Below are positions 1,594 to 45,047 of a stretch of DNA of 49,439 nucleotides, piece after piece. Each line of letters opens with the position of its first letter. Position 1 is the first letter of the stretch. The notes beneath the pieces were generated by a model. It had not been told where the DNA came from, ran no database searches, and saw only the letters and a list, made by a program, of their open reading frames with translations. The stretch lies in IMG/VR virus record IMGVR_UViG_3300017530_000010, positions 1-49,439 of that record. One strand, written 5' to 3'. The position numbers were made by a program, and so were the translations under genes. Source of the stretch: a virus.

Positions 1594-3633
1594 ATGGCTG
1601 TAATACCCGTGATGGACGCAACCGTCACGCAAGTACCATCTGTTAATCCTACACAAGACCATACACCTATAATAATAGGTGGCGCTTCTAAGGGTCGCTA
1701 TACCCCTCTTGTGTACTATAAATCTCTCCCAAATGGGCTCTTCCATTACCAGTTTTCGACTAGCATAGCTGCTACCGACCCTACTCCTGGGTTCGTGAAG
1801 ATAGATAATATACTCCCTCCGTTAGCTACGCAGATGTATATTTCGCAGTCATCTTTACACTCTCTAGTGATTTCAAAGCTGTTATTGACATTAGATAATG
1901 GCGACTTGGTGATAATAAGGCAGAAAGGGGACGCAACAAAGACACTATTTTATAGTGTAACAGGGCCTGTAATCAATAATGCTACATGGTTTACGGTTCC
2001 TATTGCGGCAGAATCTACCCTTACTTTGCCGGATAATCTAGAGGAGTGCGAGATAACGGTGCTTAGCAGCGGTGCTTCAGCGGCTGTAAATAGACTAAAC
2101 AGCGTGTTATCGTTGCCGTTTAGTACAGCACTAGCCTTTGATGCCACTAATAACGCCATTGGAGAGGTGACCCTAACAGGGAACACAATACCCGGTGTGA
2201 TTACCGGGGTGTCTTCAGGCGATGTTGTAAGACTTATAGTTAAACAAGACACCGTAGGTAATCACCATGTGAATTGGGGTAACTTCAAAACTAGTGGTGA
2301 TACCCAGCCTTTGGGGGCTAAAGAGCAGGGAGCGACTAGTGTATATGAGATACAGGTGTTGCCGGACAGTTCGCAGGTGGTCTCTTTAGTAGAGAGTGAT
2401 AGGCCAACAACCAAGCGCATGATTTTGTACCCAGATGATCCGTTGTTTGATGGGATCGGTGGAGGGGCAAACCGTATTTATGATAATGTTGTGACCAATT
2501 TACTATGGACTTGGGATGATGTCCGTAAGTACGAGTATTATACATACTCAGATTTGCAGTGGTCTGGTCCTCAGTATTTTCAGGCTAATAAAGACAAGCT
2601 TAATACGGTCAAGGCCAATGTACCTAATGCTAAGTGCCTAGCATTTATAAGGTTTGAATTATGGTGGTTATGGTCACGATTAGGGTTAGCATTTCCTGAA
2701 AGGGAGTGGGGGAATACATTAGATGCTGATGGGAATATAATTCCTTTGCCAACAGCAGCTATGGGGATGGTTCCTGCGGCCCCAGCGCCTGCCTGGTCAA
2801 CCGCTCAGGCTCAGATAGAGGCTGCGGGGTACCTTATGGACCCTAGGCTTAGTACACTGACTAGTGCGGGTGCTTTGCTGACTGCTCCATACAATATCAA
2901 ACTGACGAATAACCCTGAGATAGGTGGTACACCTATCGAGTGGTGGACCGAAGCTAACAAGATGAATATAAATCCGCAAGACCCGAATGGTTTTGCTTGG
3001 TTGGATTTGCTAACGGATCAGCTCGTTGCACAGAGAAGACTAGAACCTAATGTTGATGGGTACTACATATCTGCTCAGAAAGTACAGCATTACGAGGTAC
3101 CGGCTATAATCTCAAATAAACTCTTTGAATGGTTAGACGGGACTGTGAATCCTAACTGGAGTTTAGCTACAGATAGCGGCGGTTCGGCAGGTATTGAAAG
3201 TTGGACGGATGGAGGTATGCAAAGTGGGAGAGAGCAGTACGGGGATGTTAACATCCTAAATACAATGGTTGATATCTTTGATGCTAACAAGGCTATCATA
3301 GATATGCTTAGGCTAAAGGACCCTAGTGCCATATTGGTGTACTCACCAGTAAATCTCACAGTAACTAGTTGGCGGAATGGTAATCGTAACGGAGATTTCT
3401 TGGGTTCGGCTAAGAATAAGTATACTTTTTTGACTAATAATGACGAGGCGAAAGTATACTGGGCCGATTTACTAAGCTATTGTGCTTCTAAATGTGATGG
3501 AATAGAATTTGAAGCTGATAATGACCCAGCAGACTTCACTGTTGAGTGGGCGAATCAAATGAGGGGCATGAAAGATAAGTGGGTGCTAACTACACGACAA
3601 CCTCAAGATATTTCTTTACTAGCGGATCAATAA
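1594..3633 (+). CDS. Large virion-associated protein, possible fibre with TIM-barrel-like C-terminal domain
   Basis: A 679-residue protein with a good Shine-Dalgarno (AAGGAACGAG, 1581-1590). Residues 1-270 are rich in beta-prone, Thr/Ser/Val sequence typical of virion proteins, and begin with an IIIGGASKGRYTPLVYYKS patch. Residues about 280-679 change character. Aromatic-rich stretches (NLLWTWDDVRKYEYYTYSDL) and alternating strand and acid motifs (CDGIEFEADNDP near the C-terminus) resemble a TIM-barrel glycoside-hydrolase-like fold. No catalytic pair can be named with certainty. A receptor-binding or surface-glycan-degrading fibre is the best guess. Confidence 0.5.
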   Translation: MAVIPVMDATVTQVPSVNPTQDHTPIIIGGASKGRYTPLVYYKSLPNGLFHYQFSTSIAATDPTPGFVKIDNILPPLATQMYISQSSLHSLVISKLLLTLDNGDLVIIRQKGDATKTLFYSVTGPVINNATWFTVPIAAESTLTLPDNLEECEITVLSSGASAAVNRLNSVLSLPFSTALAFDATNNAIGEVTLTGNTIPGVITGVSSGDVVRLIVKQDTVGNHHVNWGNFKTSGDTQPLGAKEQGATSVYEIQVLPDSSQVVSLVESDRPTTKRMILYPDDPLFDGIGGGANRIYDNVVTNLLWTWDDVRKYEYYTYSDLQWSGPQYFQANKDKLNTVKANVPNAKCLAFIRFELWWLWSRLGLAFPEREWGNTLDADGNIIPLPTAAMGMVPAAPAPAWSTAQAQIEAAGYLMDPRLSTLTSAGALLTAPYNIKLTNNPEIGGTPIEWWTEANKMNINPQDPNGFAWLDLLTDQLVAQRRLEPNVDGYYISAQKVQHYEVPAIISNKLFEWLDGTVNPNWSLATDSGGSAGIESWTDGGMQSGREQYGDVNILNTMVDIFDANKAIIDMLRLKDPSAILVYSPVNLTVTSWRNGNRNGDFLGSAKNKYTFLTNNDEAKVYWADLLSYCASKCDGIEFEADNDPADFTVEWANQMRGMKDKWVLTTRQPQDISLLADQ

Positions 3634-3634
3634 A

Positions 3635-4024
3635 ATGGTGCAAGAACTAAGAATAACTAGTCTAGTTACTAATACCTCTGCCCCTAGTCAACAGAATCAT
3701 GGGGATAGCAGTATTCCTTTGACTGCTGGTGATTTTGAGAAGGGCGATCGTATAGATGTTACGGATGCGCCAGAGGTGCCGGTGGTGATACCTACGGAGT
3801 TTTTGAGTAATGGAATATTGTCTCTTATAGACGATACAGATGATACTTTGGTTGTTACAGGGGAATTTGTTCAGTACGGGTTCGCTACAGGTGTATATGT
3901 TGGGAAGTTGTCTCCTGGTGTACCCGCTATCATGGAGATTGCGGCAGGCGTCACTTCTTTGTTTATGTTGAGAAATGCTGTAGGTACATCAAAAGTTAGG
4001 TATCACATGATCGACGGGGGATAG
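3635..4024 (+). CDS. Hypothetical beta-rich virion-associated protein
   Basis: A 129-residue protein starting one base after the preceding stop (TAAAATG), so co-translated with the fibre candidate. It has no signal peptide or membrane segment. The sequence is Gly/Val/Thr-rich with short strands (DDTLVVTGEFVQYGFATGVYVG) and ends RYHMIDGG. It may be a partner, chaperone or small decoration protein of the product of 1594-3633. I do not recognise the family. Confidence 0.5.
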   Translation: MVQELRITSLVTNTSAPSQQNHGDSSIPLTAGDFEKGDRIDVTDAPEVPVVIPTEFLSNGILSLIDDTDDTLVVTGEFVQYGFATGVYVGKLSPGVPAIMEIAAGVTSLFMLRNAVGTSKVRYHMIDGG

Positions 4025-29778: not shown

Positions 29779-29841
29779 CAACCAACTTTTTAAGTGTTCG
29801 AGAGCCTCAGTCTTAATTTATACTTACCCCCCGATAGGGGG

Positions 29842-29869
29842 TTCCCGGACACTTGGGCTCGCGTATAAT
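29842..29869 (+). promoter_or_regulatory. Promoter (type shared with 45020-45047)
   Basis: TTCCCG, a 16-bp spacer, then a perfect TATAAT at 29864-29869. Spacer and flanks (GGACACTTGG, then TCGC before the -10) are the same as in the promoter at 45020-45047. This marks a phage promoter class rather than a chance match. It would drive thymidylate synthase and the replication module. Confidence 0.65.
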
Positions 29870-29927
29870 GGAGGGATACCGCGTCGGACCTGAACTGAAG
29901 TCGGGTCCGGCGACACACCCGACGGCC

Positions 29928-29970
29928 ACAACGCCGATACAACGCCGATACAACGCCATACAACGCTGCT
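29928..29970. repeat. 11-bp tandem repeat in leader of thymidylate synthase
   Basis: Two perfect units of ACAACGCCGAT (29928-29949) are followed by a 10-base unit (ACAACGCCAT) and a diverged one (ACAACGCTGCT). The G-poor tract lies inside the presumed leader RNA, and resembles the AC-rich repeats before other genes here. Confidence 0.8.
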
Positions 29971-30026
29971 ACACACGATCCATAGTACCGCTCGTCTGAT
30001 TAGACCCCTACTGTTATACTACGCCC

Positions 30027-30087
30027 AAATTCGCCCCAGTGAATCGAGCCCTCTCCGTCCGCCAAGGGACCCCCATCTGGGGCGATT
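30027..30087 (+). ncRNA. Candidate structured leader RNA stem
   Basis: AAATTCGCCCCAG (30027-30039) pairs with CTGGGGCGATTT (30076-30087) through 12 base pairs with a single bulge. An inner CCCT/AGGG stem (around 30045 and 30067) is enclosed. The structure lies in the leader 56 nt before the thymidylate synthase ATG. It could be an attenuator or regulatory element. No aptamer consensus is recognised. Confidence 0.5.
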
Positions 30088-30142
30088 TGAACTGAGTCAA
30101 GGGGGTACATACTAAGTGGGTCTTATAAACAAGGTACAAAAA

Positions 30143-35843: not shown

Positions 35844-36430
35844 TGTCGTGTGACAAAAGAATAACTGCTGCCCAAAGTCTAGACCCGTTTGATACTATCC
35901 ATAACATATTGGATATGAATGGTCCGCTATTCGAAACATTAAAAGAGTCTAGTTATCCTAGATGTATGGACGAGGCCGAGTGTATATTAGTTAAGTCTCA
36001 CTCTACGGACTGGGTTGGTTGGATAGAGATTCGTAAAATCAATATCCAACCTTATTATAGAACACCCTGTACATCTGCTATCCTAAAGTACCTAGGTGTT
36101 AATGAGTGGTCCGAGTCTCGATACTTAGAGGACTGTACAGAGATTCTAAAGAAGCAAGGATGGGTAGTGACACAAGAGAATATTATATCTTACACAGTTG
36201 GTTCATTACGAAAGGAGATAAAAGCTAACAGACTATGTAGTAAGGCGATATACTTTATGGTTATTATGTCCGGGCATGTTTTACTACTAGACAGTCATGG
36301 TGATACATGCTGCGACACCGCACCTGTTTCAAAAGATAGGCGACATGTTTACAATGTCTATTCAATTACGAGTAAAGAGAGAGAATCGTTTTCCAGTAAC
36401 CTATCCTATGCCATGAGTAAAATCAAATGA
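35843..36430 (+). CDS. Hypothetical protein
   Basis: 195 residues, coupled to both neighbours by TAATG and ATGA overlaps. Contains several Cys (YPRCMDEAECILV, then DSHGDTCCDTAPV) but no clear zinc motif. Mixed alpha/beta. It lies in the replication block before the SSB-like candidate, so a replication accessory role is plausible. Not recognised. Confidence 0.6.
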   Translation: MSCDKRITAAQSLDPFDTIHNILDMNGPLFETLKESSYPRCMDEAECILVKSHSTDWVGWIEIRKINIQPYYRTPCTSAILKYLGVNEWSESRYLEDCTEILKKQGWVVTQENIISYTVGSLRKEIKANRLCSKAIYFMVIMSGHVLLLDSHGDTCCDTAPVSKDRRHVYNVYSITSKERESFSSNLSYAMSKIK

Positions 36431-37473
36431 CCTCCCCGCAAAACCAAATTGCTGCCAGCATACTTAACGTTGTCTCTAAAACTGCGGCCCCTAACCCCAA
36501 CATCAACAAAGAGGAACAAATGGCGAATTCAGAGAACCTACCTGCCGTACAAAACAATAACGACCTTCCGGAGTACCTACAGCTCTACTTAGCGGATCAG
36601 AAGGCGCCTCTAGCCACCGGCCTAGAGGAAGCTAGGCAATTCACAACAGCACAATACATCAAGATTGTGCAATCGTCTAGTACAGATTTATTGAAAGAAC
36701 GTTCAATAGGGGATATGATACTGACCCCAGACGACGACCTGATTGCGCCTGTCATTTTGGATACGGAGGGTAAACCAACAACAGAATCTCAAAGAATACC
36801 TTTTACACCGATAAGTTTCTTTGTGGAGTGGATTATTCGGAATCCACTAAACGTAGAGCCGTTTGTAAGAGAAAGAAGTAGAGACCCTAGTAGTGAGATT
36901 GCTAGTAGGGCTAGAAGTTTCGATAAGAGTATTAACACTCTACCCTATCCTGAAGAGCCCGACAACAGGGAAAAGAGTATTCGATACTGCGAGACTCTTA
37001 ACTATATCTCTTTCTTGCACTTAGAGGGGTTTAATTCAGTACCTGTTATAGTTTCCTTTTCGGTAGGAAGTTATAAAAACGGTTCAGCCTTTGGGGCTTT
37101 AGCCGGTCTAAGAAAAGCCCCAATGTATTGTTGTATCTTTGAGCTATACTCAAAGTATACTGTGGCGAAGAAAGGTGATTACTATTCTTTAACCGCAGAT
37201 AACCCGCGACAAGGGCCAAGTTATGTCGAGCAAGGGGACTTGCAAAGGAATACTGATTTGTTTAAGGGGTACCTAGAGACCAACAAGTTGATTAGGGACC
37301 AGGAGATAGGAAATGGTGCCCCTGTCATTACTGACAATGTGATTGAGGCGGCAAATACCCTTTTGACACCTGAATCACCTGCCCGTACAGCCCCTGTACA
37401 TATACCGGCGCCTGTACATGTTCCTGCTCCTGCTCCCGTACCTACACGGCAAAGTGACCATATACCTTTCTAG
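36427..37473 (+). CDS. Candidate ssDNA-binding protein with SSB-like C-terminal tip
   Basis: 348 residues with no signal peptide. The body is unrecognised: helical opening LPEYLQLYLADQKAPLATGL, then strand-rich VPVIVSFSVGSYKNGSAFG. A Pro/Ala linker (PVHIPAPVHVPAPAPVP) precedes the last seven residues, QSDHIPF. Bacterial SSBs end in a flexible Pro-rich linker and D-x-I-P-F-like tip that recruits replication proteins. Position directly before the structured RNAs and primase-helicase gene agrees. The function is inferred from the tail; it lacks an obvious OB-fold signature. Confidence 0.5.
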   Translation: MTSPQNQIAASILNVVSKTAAPNPNINKEEQMANSENLPAVQNNNDLPEYLQLYLADQKAPLATGLEEARQFTTAQYIKIVQSSSTDLLKERSIGDMILTPDDDLIAPVILDTEGKPTTESQRIPFTPISFFVEWIIRNPLNVEPFVRERSRDPSSEIASRARSFDKSINTLPYPEEPDNREKSIRYCETLNYISFLHLEGFNSVPVIVSFSVGSYKNGSAFGALAGLRKAPMYCCIFELYSKYTVAKKGDYYSLTADNPRQGPSYVEQGDLQRNTDLFKGYLETNKLIRDQEIGNGAPVITDNVIEAANTLLTPESPARTAPVHIPAPVHVPAPAPVPTRQSDHIPF

Positions 37474-37480
37474 AACTTGT

Positions 37481-37577
37481 GATGGGGCAGTGGGCATGAG
37501 TCAGTCCCCCTAGCTGCGGCGCTAGGTTGAGGTGGCATACCCAGTCCATCTGTCGCCTCTTGCTGTCCTATCTTTTT
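37481..37577 (+). ncRNA. Structured RNA, unit 1 of a tandem pair
   Basis: Closing stem P1 GATGGGGCAG (37481-37490) with CTGTCCTATC (37563-37572): ten pairs including G-T wobbles. Inside are hairpin P2 CCTAGC/GCTAGG (37509-37514 with 37521-37526) and hairpin P3 GAGGTGGCA/TGTCGCCTC (37529-37537 with 37551-37559, nine pairs, 13-nt loop). The linker TTG joins P3 to P1. Five T follow. Unit 2 has the same P3-TTG-P1-T layout with compensatory changes. Not a known family to me. Confidence 0.75.
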
Positions 37578-37595
37578 GTTACTTATCGCCGTGAC

Positions 37596-37703
37596 ATAGA
37601 GCAGTAGGCTCGTGGTTGGGCCTTCCGGCACACCAATAAGTTATATGGTGGACTGGGTCGAAGTAGCACTCATGATATGTTGCTTCTTGCTGCTCTATTT
37701 TTT
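37596..37703 (+). ncRNA. Structured RNA, unit 2 of a tandem pair
   Basis: P1 ATAGAGCAG (37596-37604) pairs perfectly with CTGCTCTAT (37690-37698). A central imperfect hairpin lies at 37613-37635 (TGGT/ACCA outer, GCC/GGC inner). P3 GAAGTAGCA/TGTTGCTTC (37660-37668 with 37678-37686) has nine pairs and a 9-nt loop. TTG then P1 and six T follow. Two G-C pairs in unit 1 P3 are A-T pairs here, which is compensatory evidence that the stem is functional. The T-tract suggests it is its own terminator. Confidence 0.75.
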
Positions 37704-37754
37704 GTTATTATCTGCTATCGGTAATTTCATTAGATTGTCAGGAAGTACAGCGCA

Positions 37755-40562
37755 ATGTCTTTGCCGGTAGGGGATATACTTAAAGACTATGGATTTAACA
37801 CATTTCCCACTGACGCAAATAACATAAAATGTCTATGCCCTTTTCACAAAGACACTAATCCTAGCTGTAGTGTGGAGGTTAATACAGGTGTTTGGAAGTG
37901 TTTTGTCTGTGATGCAAAAGGGTCGATATACAACTTGTTAGCACGGAAGGCCAATAAGACAGAATTAGATATCCGCAATGACTTGTCACTAAGGTTCGGA
38001 GTCTCTAATGATAAGTCAGCAGACATAAAGGCCATTGAAAGGTACTGTAGAGCATTACTTAAGAACGAATGGCTACAGAACCAGTTATTCTATCGTGGTT
38101 TAACACCAGAGCTATTAGTTTACTATAGGCTGGGTGCTGACAGAGATAGAGTAACGATACCGATAAAGAACGTAGCTGGGTACTATGTCAATATACGGAG
38201 ATATAAGCCAGACGCACAATACAACAAGTTTATCTCTCAGAAAGGACGCGGAGAGAATCGCCTATACCCAATAGAGCAGTTATCTTTCGATACAATAGTT
38301 CTCTGTGGTGGAGAGCTAAAAGCTATTGTCGCTGCCTATTATCTTAACCTACATGGCATAGGGGCCATATCAGGTACCAGCGGGGAATCCAACCTATCTA
38401 TACCTCTTGCTGAGCAGTTCCACGGTAAGACAGTGTACGTGTGTATGGATATCGACCAAGCAGGTATAATTGCCGCTGAGAAGATAGCCGGTATTCTAGT
38501 GAGGTACGCCAAGAAGGTACATATCACCTCTCTGCCTCTTGACGTAAAGGAATTACCCAGGGGCGATATCAATGACTACGTTAGGCTAAATAGGTCCGAC
38601 GATAATTCATTTCTATACAAGGCGATATTCGAGAATTCTGTTGCACATACTCTTAAGAAAATAGAGCCACACAAGCAAAATGGAGAAGTACCAAAAGATG
38701 TGGGTTTATTTAATGCAATCGAAGGTGATAATGTGGGCAGCAGAGTACGACTAAAGGGCAGAGTTGCAGCTATACTAGATCAGCCATACGAGATACCAAA
38801 AGTAATAACAGTAAGTTGTGACCGGTCTCAATTATTTTGTAGCTACTGCCCAGTGTTCCACTCTAAAGACGATCAAGAATATACAATACCTGAAGAGTCA
38901 AAGTCTATTATCTCTATGTGTGATGCGCATGAGGTTGTACAGCATGTAGAATTGAAAGTGGCTGTGGGTATACCAAAGAAGTGCAAGGTGTGTACCTTTA
39001 AAATATTATCACACTACTCGATTCAAGAAGCCAGAATCAGTAATGTGTTATCAATGACTGAGAGAGATAACGTAGCTGGTATGCAGACAGCGTATTGCGT
39101 CGGTAATAACCTAGAGCCAAACTGTGAGTATACATTCACTGGCAGAAACTTCGCCCATGCTAAAACACAAACAGCAAGCTTTATATTCTCACAGTACGAC
39201 CCTTTGGAGGATGAGTTATCTTCATACAAAGGTAAGAGAATAAAAGACCTAAAAGAATTCCAGCCAGAAGAATGGACAGTCAAGAGCATAAGAGATAAGC
39301 TATCTTGTATCTATGATGATCTAGAAGCCAATGTAACGTACATCTACGAACGTAGAAGAATACATCTAGCTGTTGATCTAGCTTATCATTCACCTCTTCA
39401 ATTTGTTCTAGACGATGAATTACAAAAGGGATGGGTTGAAGTGCTAATAATTGGTGACTCGTCTATAGGTAAGACCAAGACAGCAAACAATCTAAAGGAG
39501 CATTACGGGGTAGGCAAACGAACATCTTGTAAGGGAGCGACATTAGCCGGATTGCTGGGTGGATTAGCTTCCATCAGTAACAGGTGGTTCGTTACCTGGG
39601 GCATCATCCCGACCTATGACAAACAGCTAGTTATTCTAGAGGAGCTATCCGGCATAACTAGAGGCGCCTTCCAGGGTATGACGGACATGCGATCAACAGG
39701 GATAGCAGAGATTACTAAGATAGAAAAGAGATCAACACACGCTAGAACTAGACTTGTAGCAATCTCCAATCCCATTAGAGGTAAGTCAGTAAACTCTTAT
39801 ACATTTGGCATACAAGCTATAGAGGAATTGATACGGGCACCTGAAGACATACGGAGATTCGATTTATGCTTAACCGAATCCGAGGATGACATAGACATAG
39901 TCAAGCTTTCGAAGCTACAGTCATATAGGCCAAACATAGAGCATAAATATACTGGTGAATTATGCAGAGAGCTAATTCTATGGGGCTGGTCTAGAGATCA
40001 TTCCCAGGTGAAGTTTGAGGACGCGGCAATTAGGTTGATAGAACCTGTAGTAAATAAGCTATGCGACACCTTCTCAGAATCCTGCCCGATAATAGACAAA
40101 GGGTCTACTAGGTATAAGGTAGCTAGACTAGCTGCATCATTAGCTGTTAGAACTTTCTCACATGAGAATGAAGATACGGTATTGATTCGTGAATGTCATA
40201 TAGAATTCATCTTTAACATGTTAATGAAATTCTACAGTGAGACTAAGATAGGTTATCTAAGGTACTCAGAGTCTATTAAGTACACTAATGAGTTACGTGA
40301 TGTAGACATCATAAGAATACAGATAGATAAAATAGTTCATGCAAAAGACTTTGTTAGCAAGATGTTATATTGCATTGACTTTGACATGGACGACCTAGCG
40401 GACTGGACAGGATATCCTCGTGATTTTGCTCGACCAGTTCTATCCTTGCTGGTCAGAAAGAATGCTGTTGTACGAATGGGTAAATTTAGATACAAAAAGA
40501 CTGACGCATTTAATTCGTATCTTCACGATCTATTCGGTAGTGGGGAGTTAAGGAATAGTTAA
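37755..40562 (+). CDS. Primase fused to MCM-like replicative helicase
   Basis: 935 residues with three parts. First, a DnaG-type primase start: CHC2 zinc ligands C28, H31, C49, C52, then TOPRIM with GGELK (185-189) and the DxD of MDIDQAG (232-234). Second, residues about 320-480 are an OB-like region with several Cys pairs (C361/C364, C409/C412), as in MCM N-terminal zinc domains. Third, an AAA+ core with Walker A GDSSIGKT (566-573), Walker B VILEEL (625-630), sensor AISNP (668-672) and arginine-finger EDIRRFD (696-702). MCM-primase fusions are known from prophages such as BcMCM. It primes and unwinds at the phage fork. Confidence 0.85.
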   Translation: MSLPVGDILKDYGFNTFPTDANNIKCLCPFHKDTNPSCSVEVNTGVWKCFVCDAKGSIYNLLARKANKTELDIRNDLSLRFGVSNDKSADIKAIERYCRALLKNEWLQNQLFYRGLTPELLVYYRLGADRDRVTIPIKNVAGYYVNIRRYKPDAQYNKFISQKGRGENRLYPIEQLSFDTIVLCGGELKAIVAAYYLNLHGIGAISGTSGESNLSIPLAEQFHGKTVYVCMDIDQAGIIAAEKIAGILVRYAKKVHITSLPLDVKELPRGDINDYVRLNRSDDNSFLYKAIFENSVAHTLKKIEPHKQNGEVPKDVGLFNAIEGDNVGSRVRLKGRVAAILDQPYEIPKVITVSCDRSQLFCSYCPVFHSKDDQEYTIPEESKSIISMCDAHEVVQHVELKVAVGIPKKCKVCTFKILSHYSIQEARISNVLSMTERDNVAGMQTAYCVGNNLEPNCEYTFTGRNFAHAKTQTASFIFSQYDPLEDELSSYKGKRIKDLKEFQPEEWTVKSIRDKLSCIYDDLEANVTYIYERRRIHLAVDLAYHSPLQFVLDDELQKGWVEVLIIGDSSIGKTKTANNLKEHYGVGKRTSCKGATLAGLLGGLASISNRWFVTWGIIPTYDKQLVILEELSGITRGAFQGMTDMRSTGIAEITKIEKRSTHARTRLVAISNPIRGKSVNSYTFGIQAIEELIRAPEDIRRFDLCLTESEDDIDIVKLSKLQSYRPNIEHKYTGELCRELILWGWSRDHSQVKFEDAAIRLIEPVVNKLCDTFSESCPIIDKGSTRYKVARLAASLAVRTFSHENEDTVLIRECHIEFIFNMLMKFYSETKIGYLRYSESIKYTNELRDVDIIRIQIDKIVHAKDFVSKMLYCIDFDMDDLADWTGYPRDFARPVLSLLVRKNAVVRMGKFRYKKTDAFNSYLHDLFGSGELRNS

Positions 40563-44505: not shown

Positions 44506-44737
44506 TCAAATAATTAAAAGACTACGCGGATTTGACGTCGACCTTGATTTATGTAATGAGGCAGCCGACGAAATAGAAAGGCTAGAAGGAATTGCCACCG
44601 AACAGTGTAAGTTAATAGATGACATATTTTGTATGCTTCTCAAGTACACAGGACAAGATAATGTGTCCGACGAGAATGTGCCTGACAAAAGCTTATCGGA
44701 CCCTGGGTCCGACGAATGGATTAACGAAACTTTTTAA
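44498..44737 (+). CDS. Small acidic hypothetical protein
   Basis: 79 residues from ATG 44498, overlapping the previous gene by 8 bases. A helical first half (LCNEAADEIERLEGIATEQ) and an acidic end (DENVPDKSLSDPGSDEW) contain no motif. Its 3' half carries two of the GTCCGACG repeats (44665-44672 and 44707-44714), in different reading frames, so the DNA motif rather than the protein may be under selection. Unrecognised. Confidence 0.5.
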   Translation: MTSQIIKRLRGFDVDLDLCNEAADEIERLEGIATEQCKLIDDIFCMLLKYTGQDNVSDENVPDKSLSDPGSDEWINETF

Positions 44738-44773
44738 TTTGGTCCGACGGTTTTTAAAACAATTGGTCCGACG
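44665..44773. repeat. Four iteron-like GTCCGACG motifs
   Basis: GTCCGACG occurs at 44665-44672, 44707-44714, 44742-44749 and 44766-44773, with spacing 42, 35 and 24 bases, all in the same orientation. Flanking sequence often adds GG before and A after. Two lie at the 3' end of the preceding gene and two in the gap. Clustered direct 8-mers near hairpins fit a replication-initiator or repressor binding array. A copy also occurs at 43048 and one at 38594. Confidence 0.6.
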
Positions 44774-44870
44774 AAAATGGAAAATGGATACCCCCTAAAC
44801 GGGGGCCCCGCTAATGGGGTAGGCCCTTACCCCCTAGACTGGGGTCCCTCTAATAGGGGTCCCTCTAATT

Positions 44871-44916
44871 GGGTAAGTGTTTACCCCCTAATAGTGCCCC
44901 CTCTAATGGGGTAAAC
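44871..44916 (+). promoter_or_regulatory. Mutually exclusive hairpins (attenuator or origin-like)
   Basis: GGGTAA (44871-44876) pairs with TTACCC (44881-44886). The same TTACCC is part of GTTTACCCC (44879-44887), which pairs perfectly with GGGGTAAAC (44908-44916). Only one can form, as in anti-terminator/terminator pairs. Several further C4/G4 hairpins lie just upstream. No T-tract directly follows the second stem, so classic attenuation is not certain. Confidence 0.5.
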
Positions 44917-45019
44917 AGCGGTTGGTAAAAATGCCGACTTGTGACATTTAAATGGTAATACATATTGTGATGCTTTGGTATGATAGTTGCTATTACGGAT
45001 TTTTTCCGAATTTTTCGGG

Positions 45020-45047
45020 TTGCCGGACACTTGGTATCGCATACAAT
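45020..45047 (+). promoter_or_regulatory. Promoter (type shared with 29842-29869)
   Basis: TTGCCG, 16-bp spacer, then TACAAT at 45042-45047. It matches the promoter at 29842-29869 across the -35 end, GGACACTTGG and TCGC elements, differing mainly in the middle of the spacer. It lies 54 bp before the RuvB-like ATG at 45101. Confidence 0.65.

Follow-up and report, generated by a model that had tools for sequence, protein, structure and literature searches.

Tandem structured RNA units ahead of a phage primase-helicase gene: a possible pair of elaborated intrinsic terminators or attenuators

Among the closest described systems, the put sites of phage HK022 are antitermination RNAs, which cause terminator read-through by RNA polymerase, and the RNase III sites of phage T7 lie between early genes, as hairpins in a long early transcript. 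For ordinary terminators a median loop of 4 nt is reported, and the limits applied by TransTermHP are a stem of at least 4, a loop of 3-13 nt, and a stem-loop of at most 59 nt (PMC12207403). Ribosome shielding affects the outcome at such sites; the efficiency of the E. coli terminator tR2 is ~90% at 28 bp after the stop codon, and below 10% at 5 bp (PMC4824070).

The window analyzed here, i.e., the whole stretch of 49,439 nt of the IMG/VR virus record IMGVR_UViG_3300017530_000010, contains a 281-nt gap between a gene coding for 348 amino acids (36427-37473, + strand) and a primase-helicase gene with a CHC2 zinc finger, a Toprim-like domain, and an MCM-like P-loop domain (37755-40562, + strand). 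The gap is occupied by two consecutive units of ~100 nt on the + strand, unit 1 (W1; 37481-37580) and unit 2 (W2; 37595-37707), and the stop codon of the upstream gene ends 7 nt before W1. The upstream gene product has the C-terminus DHIPF, and its AF2 model is β-rich; since a fold search returned no significant match, its designation as a proven SSB was dropped. With homologues in nine phages besides the relative introduced below, the gene is tentatively regarded as an SSB-like, conserved member of the replication module. Between W2 and the primase-helicase gene, a CGGTAATTTCATTAGAT block and an AGGAAG ribosome-binding site (37719-37745, + strand) are conserved in that relative. A short ORF as content of the gap was rejected, because the few frames of 20-53 codons are not kept in the relative and none is credible; neither tRNA nor tmRNA genes are found in the whole window. 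In these respects the original prediction, which had placed two RNA units without a reading frame before the primase-helicase gene, is borne out; both units and the stems quoted for them are present, and each unit folds as described there.

Searches with the polymerase, terminase, and upstream-gene proteins yielded a single close relative, the contig IMGVR_UViG_3300003885_000004 (L001), whose proteins are 84% (primase), 77% (polymerase), and 85% (terminase) identical to those of the window. L001 carries two units in the same gap before the primase gene, LA (3698-3793) and LB (3851-3958), so that two units per genome are present in both genomes known. Between them, at 3799-3852 of L001, lie three 14-bp direct repeats, AGGAATCACAGAGC, which carry extra copies of the 5′ strand of the closing helix. 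W1 has the CCTAG hairpin in common with LA, and the ATGAGTCAG and AGTCCATC stretches in common with LB; apart from the latter two stretches, the loops are poorly conserved. This mixed likeness of W1 suggests, at the level of sequence, an exchange between copies.

The units have a common layout: the closing helix P1 is long, the interior varies and contains at least one hairpin, and a hairpin of 9 bp (P3) and a T-tract complete the arrangement. In W1, P1 is formed by 37481-37493 with 37560-37572 and P3 by 37529-37537 with 37551-37559, the central hairpin CCTAGC/GCTAGG is located at 37509-37526, and the T-tract at 37573-37580. The corresponding elements of W2 are P1 (37596-37607 with 37687-37698), central hairpins (37606-37658), P3 (37660-37668 with 37678-37686), and the T-tract (37698-37707). 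Of the shared layout originally proposed, P1 and P3 are thus kept, whereas the central hairpin is conserved in neither sequence nor size. The TTG that had been taken for a linker belongs at least partly to the 3′ strand of P1; in all four units, the three bases that follow GCAG are potential partners of it (U.G/U-A, G.U/A-U, and G.U). In the thermodynamic model the first of these pairs reaches a probability of 0.49-0.97 in three units, being clearly supported in W1 and LA and by half in W2, while the other two pairs are hardly supported. P3 therefore sits on P1 or within two nucleotides of it, and P1 and P3 make up a near-coaxial helix of ~20 bp, which is interrupted by an insertion of 35-55 nt on the 5′ side.

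Of 200 dinucleotide shuffles made for each window unit, none folds as well as the native sequence, with z-scores of -2.75 for W1 and -4.41 for W2; the units of L001 reach -5.93 and -5.19. When W1, W2, LA, and LB are aligned, 22 pairs are obtained (13 in P1 and nine in P3), with standard pairs in 97.7% of the cells, and seven of the pairs, three in P3 and four in P1, are changed on both sides. As few as 4 of 500 column shuffles reach seven double-changed pairs, one of 500 reaches the number of double-changed cells, and slid registers leave 0-2 double-changed pairs. The G-C to A-T changes on both sides of P3, by which pairing is preserved, are real, and P1 is likewise conserved by pairing. Counted on four related sequences, which are few, from two phages, these compensatory changes are good, if informal, evidence for a selected RNA structure, as had been proposed from the two window units. 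A covariance model, suggested at the time as a check, was built from W1, LA, and LB alone and still recovers W2 at an E-value of ~4e-5, which is rough owing to short calibration; the same model reveals no unit beyond these four in the two genomes.

Among the cells of 19 core pairs in the four units, read on the + strand, there are ten G-U and no A-C combinations. An RNA of the + strand can accommodate G-U but not A-C, and the functional form is therefore probably the transcript that has the same orientation as the genes. The wobble pairs also bear on an explanation at the DNA level, according to which the hairpins would belong to an origin of replication or a site of single-strand initiation beside the replication genes. 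The neighbours, a putative ssDNA-binding protein and the primase, would suit such an element, as would the 14-bp direct repeats between the units of L001 and the CCACAAT-type inverted repeats that Krampusvirus Hager has in this gap. However, G-U wobble is confined to one strand, T-tracts are present, and at 44.74-44.92 kb there is a better candidate, in which GGTCCGACG repeats are combined with CCCC/GGGG hairpins and which is kept in the relative. As the gap of the window has neither iterons nor a change in the sign of the GC skew, a replication origin at this place is disfavoured, and the DNA-level explanation is considered highly unlikely. The candidate region itself (44736-44920), a CCCC(C)TAA...GGGG hairpin cluster beside GGTCCGACG direct repeats (two in the window and five in G001), lies just before the second of two promoter-like motifs described below; judged by its sequence, it is a likely origin.

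The only runs of at least four T in the gap are T5 at 37573 and T6 at 37698, each of which sets in at the 3′ end of P1; in the whole 49-kb window, 59 runs reach a length of at least five T. Seven of the first eight tail bases are T in W1 and in W2, six in LA, and four in LB, whose tail is GTTTATAC. The T-tract described for each unit is accordingly strong in W1 and W2, of medium strength in LA, and poor in LB. In W1 and W2 the closing helix is thus followed at once by a T/U-rich tract, as in canonical terminators, but with a length of 92-103 nt, a branched interior, and an enclosed "loop" of ~65-80 nt, the units exceed the limits for loop and length and are for this reason not filed as canonical terminators. 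It is most likely that the units work like terminators. The favoured reading, to which a probability of roughly 0.52 is assigned, is that the pair represents elaborated tandem intrinsic terminators or attenuators between two gene blocks, read from the + strand. Besides the size of the loop and unit, three points stand against it. In LB the weak tail is accompanied by a P1 probability of 0.23 in the full L001 leader, where nearby GCAGAGCAG repeats offer a competing partner; a plain terminator would not need covariation of P3 and P1 at such size; and the hairpins of several relatives at this position (L003, L014, L016, and L017) are not followed by a U-tract.

The slot as such is used more widely. 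A strong simple hairpin is located between the upstream gene and the primase gene in L003, L011, L012, L013, L014, L016, L017, L026, and L034, and in most of the phages with primases of 33-44% identity, it lies within ~60 nt of the upstream stop codon. Some of these hairpins are followed by the tails CCTCTTTTC, TCTTTC, or CTCTTTCCC, and most of the upstream genes concerned are homologous to that of the window. Two further contigs with 32%-identical polymerases lie outside this slot comparison. In a more distant relative, L010, this slot ahead of the primase gene is taken by a tRNA-Thr gene (2815-2890), and in Microbacterium phage Hager (Krampusvirus; L004) the pre-primase gap contains, at 3620-3770, inverted CCACAAT/ATTGTGG repeats, apparently an origin-like element. 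A simple pair of terminators, named originally as an outcome that would overturn the prediction, is therefore half of what was found: the T-tracts at the P1 ends, the slot, and the hairpins of the clade agree with it, and the size of the units does not.

If the units are tandem terminators or attenuators, P3 would form first in each of them, and the 3′ strand of P1 would then close P1 directly beneath P3. Where the end of this helix meets the U-tract, RNA polymerase would be expected to release or to pause; the pair would end or thin the transcript of the upstream block and would meter read-through into the primase/polymerase block. A ribosome finishing the upstream gene would be expected to cover the base of P1 of W1 and to weaken this helix, while W2, at 122 nt further downstream, would escape such shielding. 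From the position of W1, 7 nt after the stop codon, and the shielding known from tR2, it would follow that W1 senses translation of the upstream gene and W2 does not.

How far read-through matters depends on the promoters. A putative phage promoter, TTCCCG-N16-TATAAT, which contains GGACACTTGG, is located ~7.6 kb upstream of the units (29842-29869, + strand) and is conserved in G001, and a second promoter-like motif of the TTNCCGGACACTTGG type at 45020-45047 has its counterpart at the same place in G001. The TTNCCGGACACTTGG motif, with TATAAT or TACAAT, thus occurs at 29.84 and 45.02 kb, both places being conserved in the relative, and further copies are not found in the window. By their sequence, the two motifs are probably the early promoters of the phage. 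The first is located in a long gap ahead of the gene for thymidylate synthase (29780-30100), which also contains CAACGCCGATA tandem repeats, a CCCCCC/GGGGGG hairpin, and, overlapping the promoter, a possible pseudoknot (AAGTGTTCG/CGGACACTT with GAGCC/GGCTC) that is not kept in G001. The stretch from the units to the primase gene contains no promoter of the type that the phage appears to use. If the two motifs are the promoters of the phage, transcription arrives at the genes between 37.7 and 44.7 kb solely by read-through of both units; this read-through is probably needed for the primase gene, and partial or regulated termination would be likelier than a full stop. The conserved CGGTAATYTCATTAGAT block after W2 could, as a sequence, be a promoter of a different kind.

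Two other roles within a transcript have to be weighed at this point. Dependence of the primase and polymerase genes on read-through would also fit an antitermination or regulated-attenuator RNA, HK022 put-like in action, or a ligand-gated leader for the primase; the two copies of a two-helix RNA would agree with this, and in L001 the decoy copies of the P1 5′ strand could switch the fold. The four units do not, however, share a conserved junction core or binding pocket, and no known riboswitch is found by Rfam, which makes such an element very improbable. Alternatively, the units might be RNA-processing or 3′-stabilising elements in one long transcript, comparable to the RNase III sites of the early T7 genes, at which the upstream message would be cut off from the primase message. 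The position right after the stop codon, the lack of a phage-type promoter before the primase, and the near-coaxial P1/P3 helix speak for this; since it would leave the T-tracts exactly at the two P1 ends unexplained and the helices are broken by the 5′ insertion, processing is regarded as quite unlikely.

Finally, each unit might form the body of a stable small RNA of ~100 nt that is set free by termination and processing, and the two RNAs might act in trans or on each other, with the P3 loop of W1 pairing with W2, and the P2 loop of W1 with the P3 loop of W2. Their compact, stable folds with defined 3′ ends and their constant number of two per genome would suit this proposal. The P3 loop of W1, ACCCAGTCCATC (37539-37550), is complementary over 12 nt, ten of them Watson-Crick, to GGTGGACTGGGT of W2 just 5′ of its P3 (37647-37658), both on the + strand; the predicted pairing of -21.8 kcal/mol is matched by 0.25% of random phage segments, which, with six loops tried, corresponds to a chance level of ~1-2%. 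In the reverse direction there is a loop-loop match of 6-7 nt, formed by CATGAGT of W1 (37495-37501, + strand) and ACTCATG at the P3 loop of W2 (37668-37674); L001 has GTATGAG/CTCATAC in comparable places, and the match is suggestive only. Against the small RNAs stand the scarcely conserved loops, the lack of room for a promoter of their own before W1, and the absence of strong inter-unit pairing in L001, where 62% and 88% of random segments give pairing of equal strength. Kissing of the units as a conserved feature is rejected for now on this last ground. Small RNAs of this kind are considered rather unlikely, and a new two-member phage RNA system, in which ~100-nt RNAs, made in tandem from a single transcript, would recognise each other through their loops and so determine whether or when transcription proceeds into the replication genes, is considered unlikely. 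An independent small-RNA family is not the leading reading, given the T-tracts exactly at the P1 ends, the slot after the stop codon, and the plain hairpins of the clade.

Rfam 15 gives no match above the gathering threshold in the gap, the window, or L001/L065, the best sub-threshold match being SAM-VI on the minus strand (E 1.5); as far as Rfam is concerned, the assertion that no family of this form had been described is supported. DNA similarity searches in phage and plasmid collections returned chance matches of 22-27 nt or none, the covariance model detected no further unit in 29 phage records with related primases, and scans of IMG/VR for P1 plus P3, and of IMG/VR and GTDB for P1, no credible one. 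Matches of the pattern scan other than L001 are chance matches to the query motif and have no P3. Weakly scoring AGCAGTAGARCAG arrays of a Phycisphaerae MAG were rejected, because they have no P3 and had been selected for by the pattern; in that MAG (G002; L078 and L084), dispersed inverted AGCAGTAGARCAG arrays flank 60-100 nt at ~15 places of the genome. Of the free-standing new RNA family originally envisaged, the selected structure stands, whereas no homologue outside one small phage group turned up in Rfam, the phage and plasmid collections, the 29 primase records, IMG/VR, or GTDB.

If the reading as elaborated tandem terminators or attenuators is true, this phage lineage would have swapped an ordinary post-stop hairpin for a duplicated, structurally selected RNA module. 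It would then allow a test of how the balance between two replication gene blocks is governed by branched terminators together with ribosome shielding, and terminator finders would miss such elements because of their short-loop limits.

Compared by description, the put sites of HK022 resemble the units in being phage leader RNAs of ~70-100 nt with two copies per genome, where put acts on the transcribing polymerase; the put copies, however, are found close to promoters in different operons and lack a T-tract. The sites of the T7 early region are comparable in being intergenic hairpins of one long early message, but they do not follow the T-tract logic and differ in helix layout. With the post-stop hairpins of the clade (L003 and others), the units share the position between an upstream gene, homologous in most cases, and the primase; those hairpins are single, ~20-34 nt long, without sequence similarity to the units, and missed by the covariance model. 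Canonical intrinsic terminators, which are often tandem, are alike in that a helix ends at a T-rich tract, post-stop, between gene blocks, and on the + strand only. While their enclosed loop measures 3-13 nt, the closing helix of the present units encloses at least one further hairpin within 92-103 nt, and compensatory conservation of two helices is a feature that sets these units apart.
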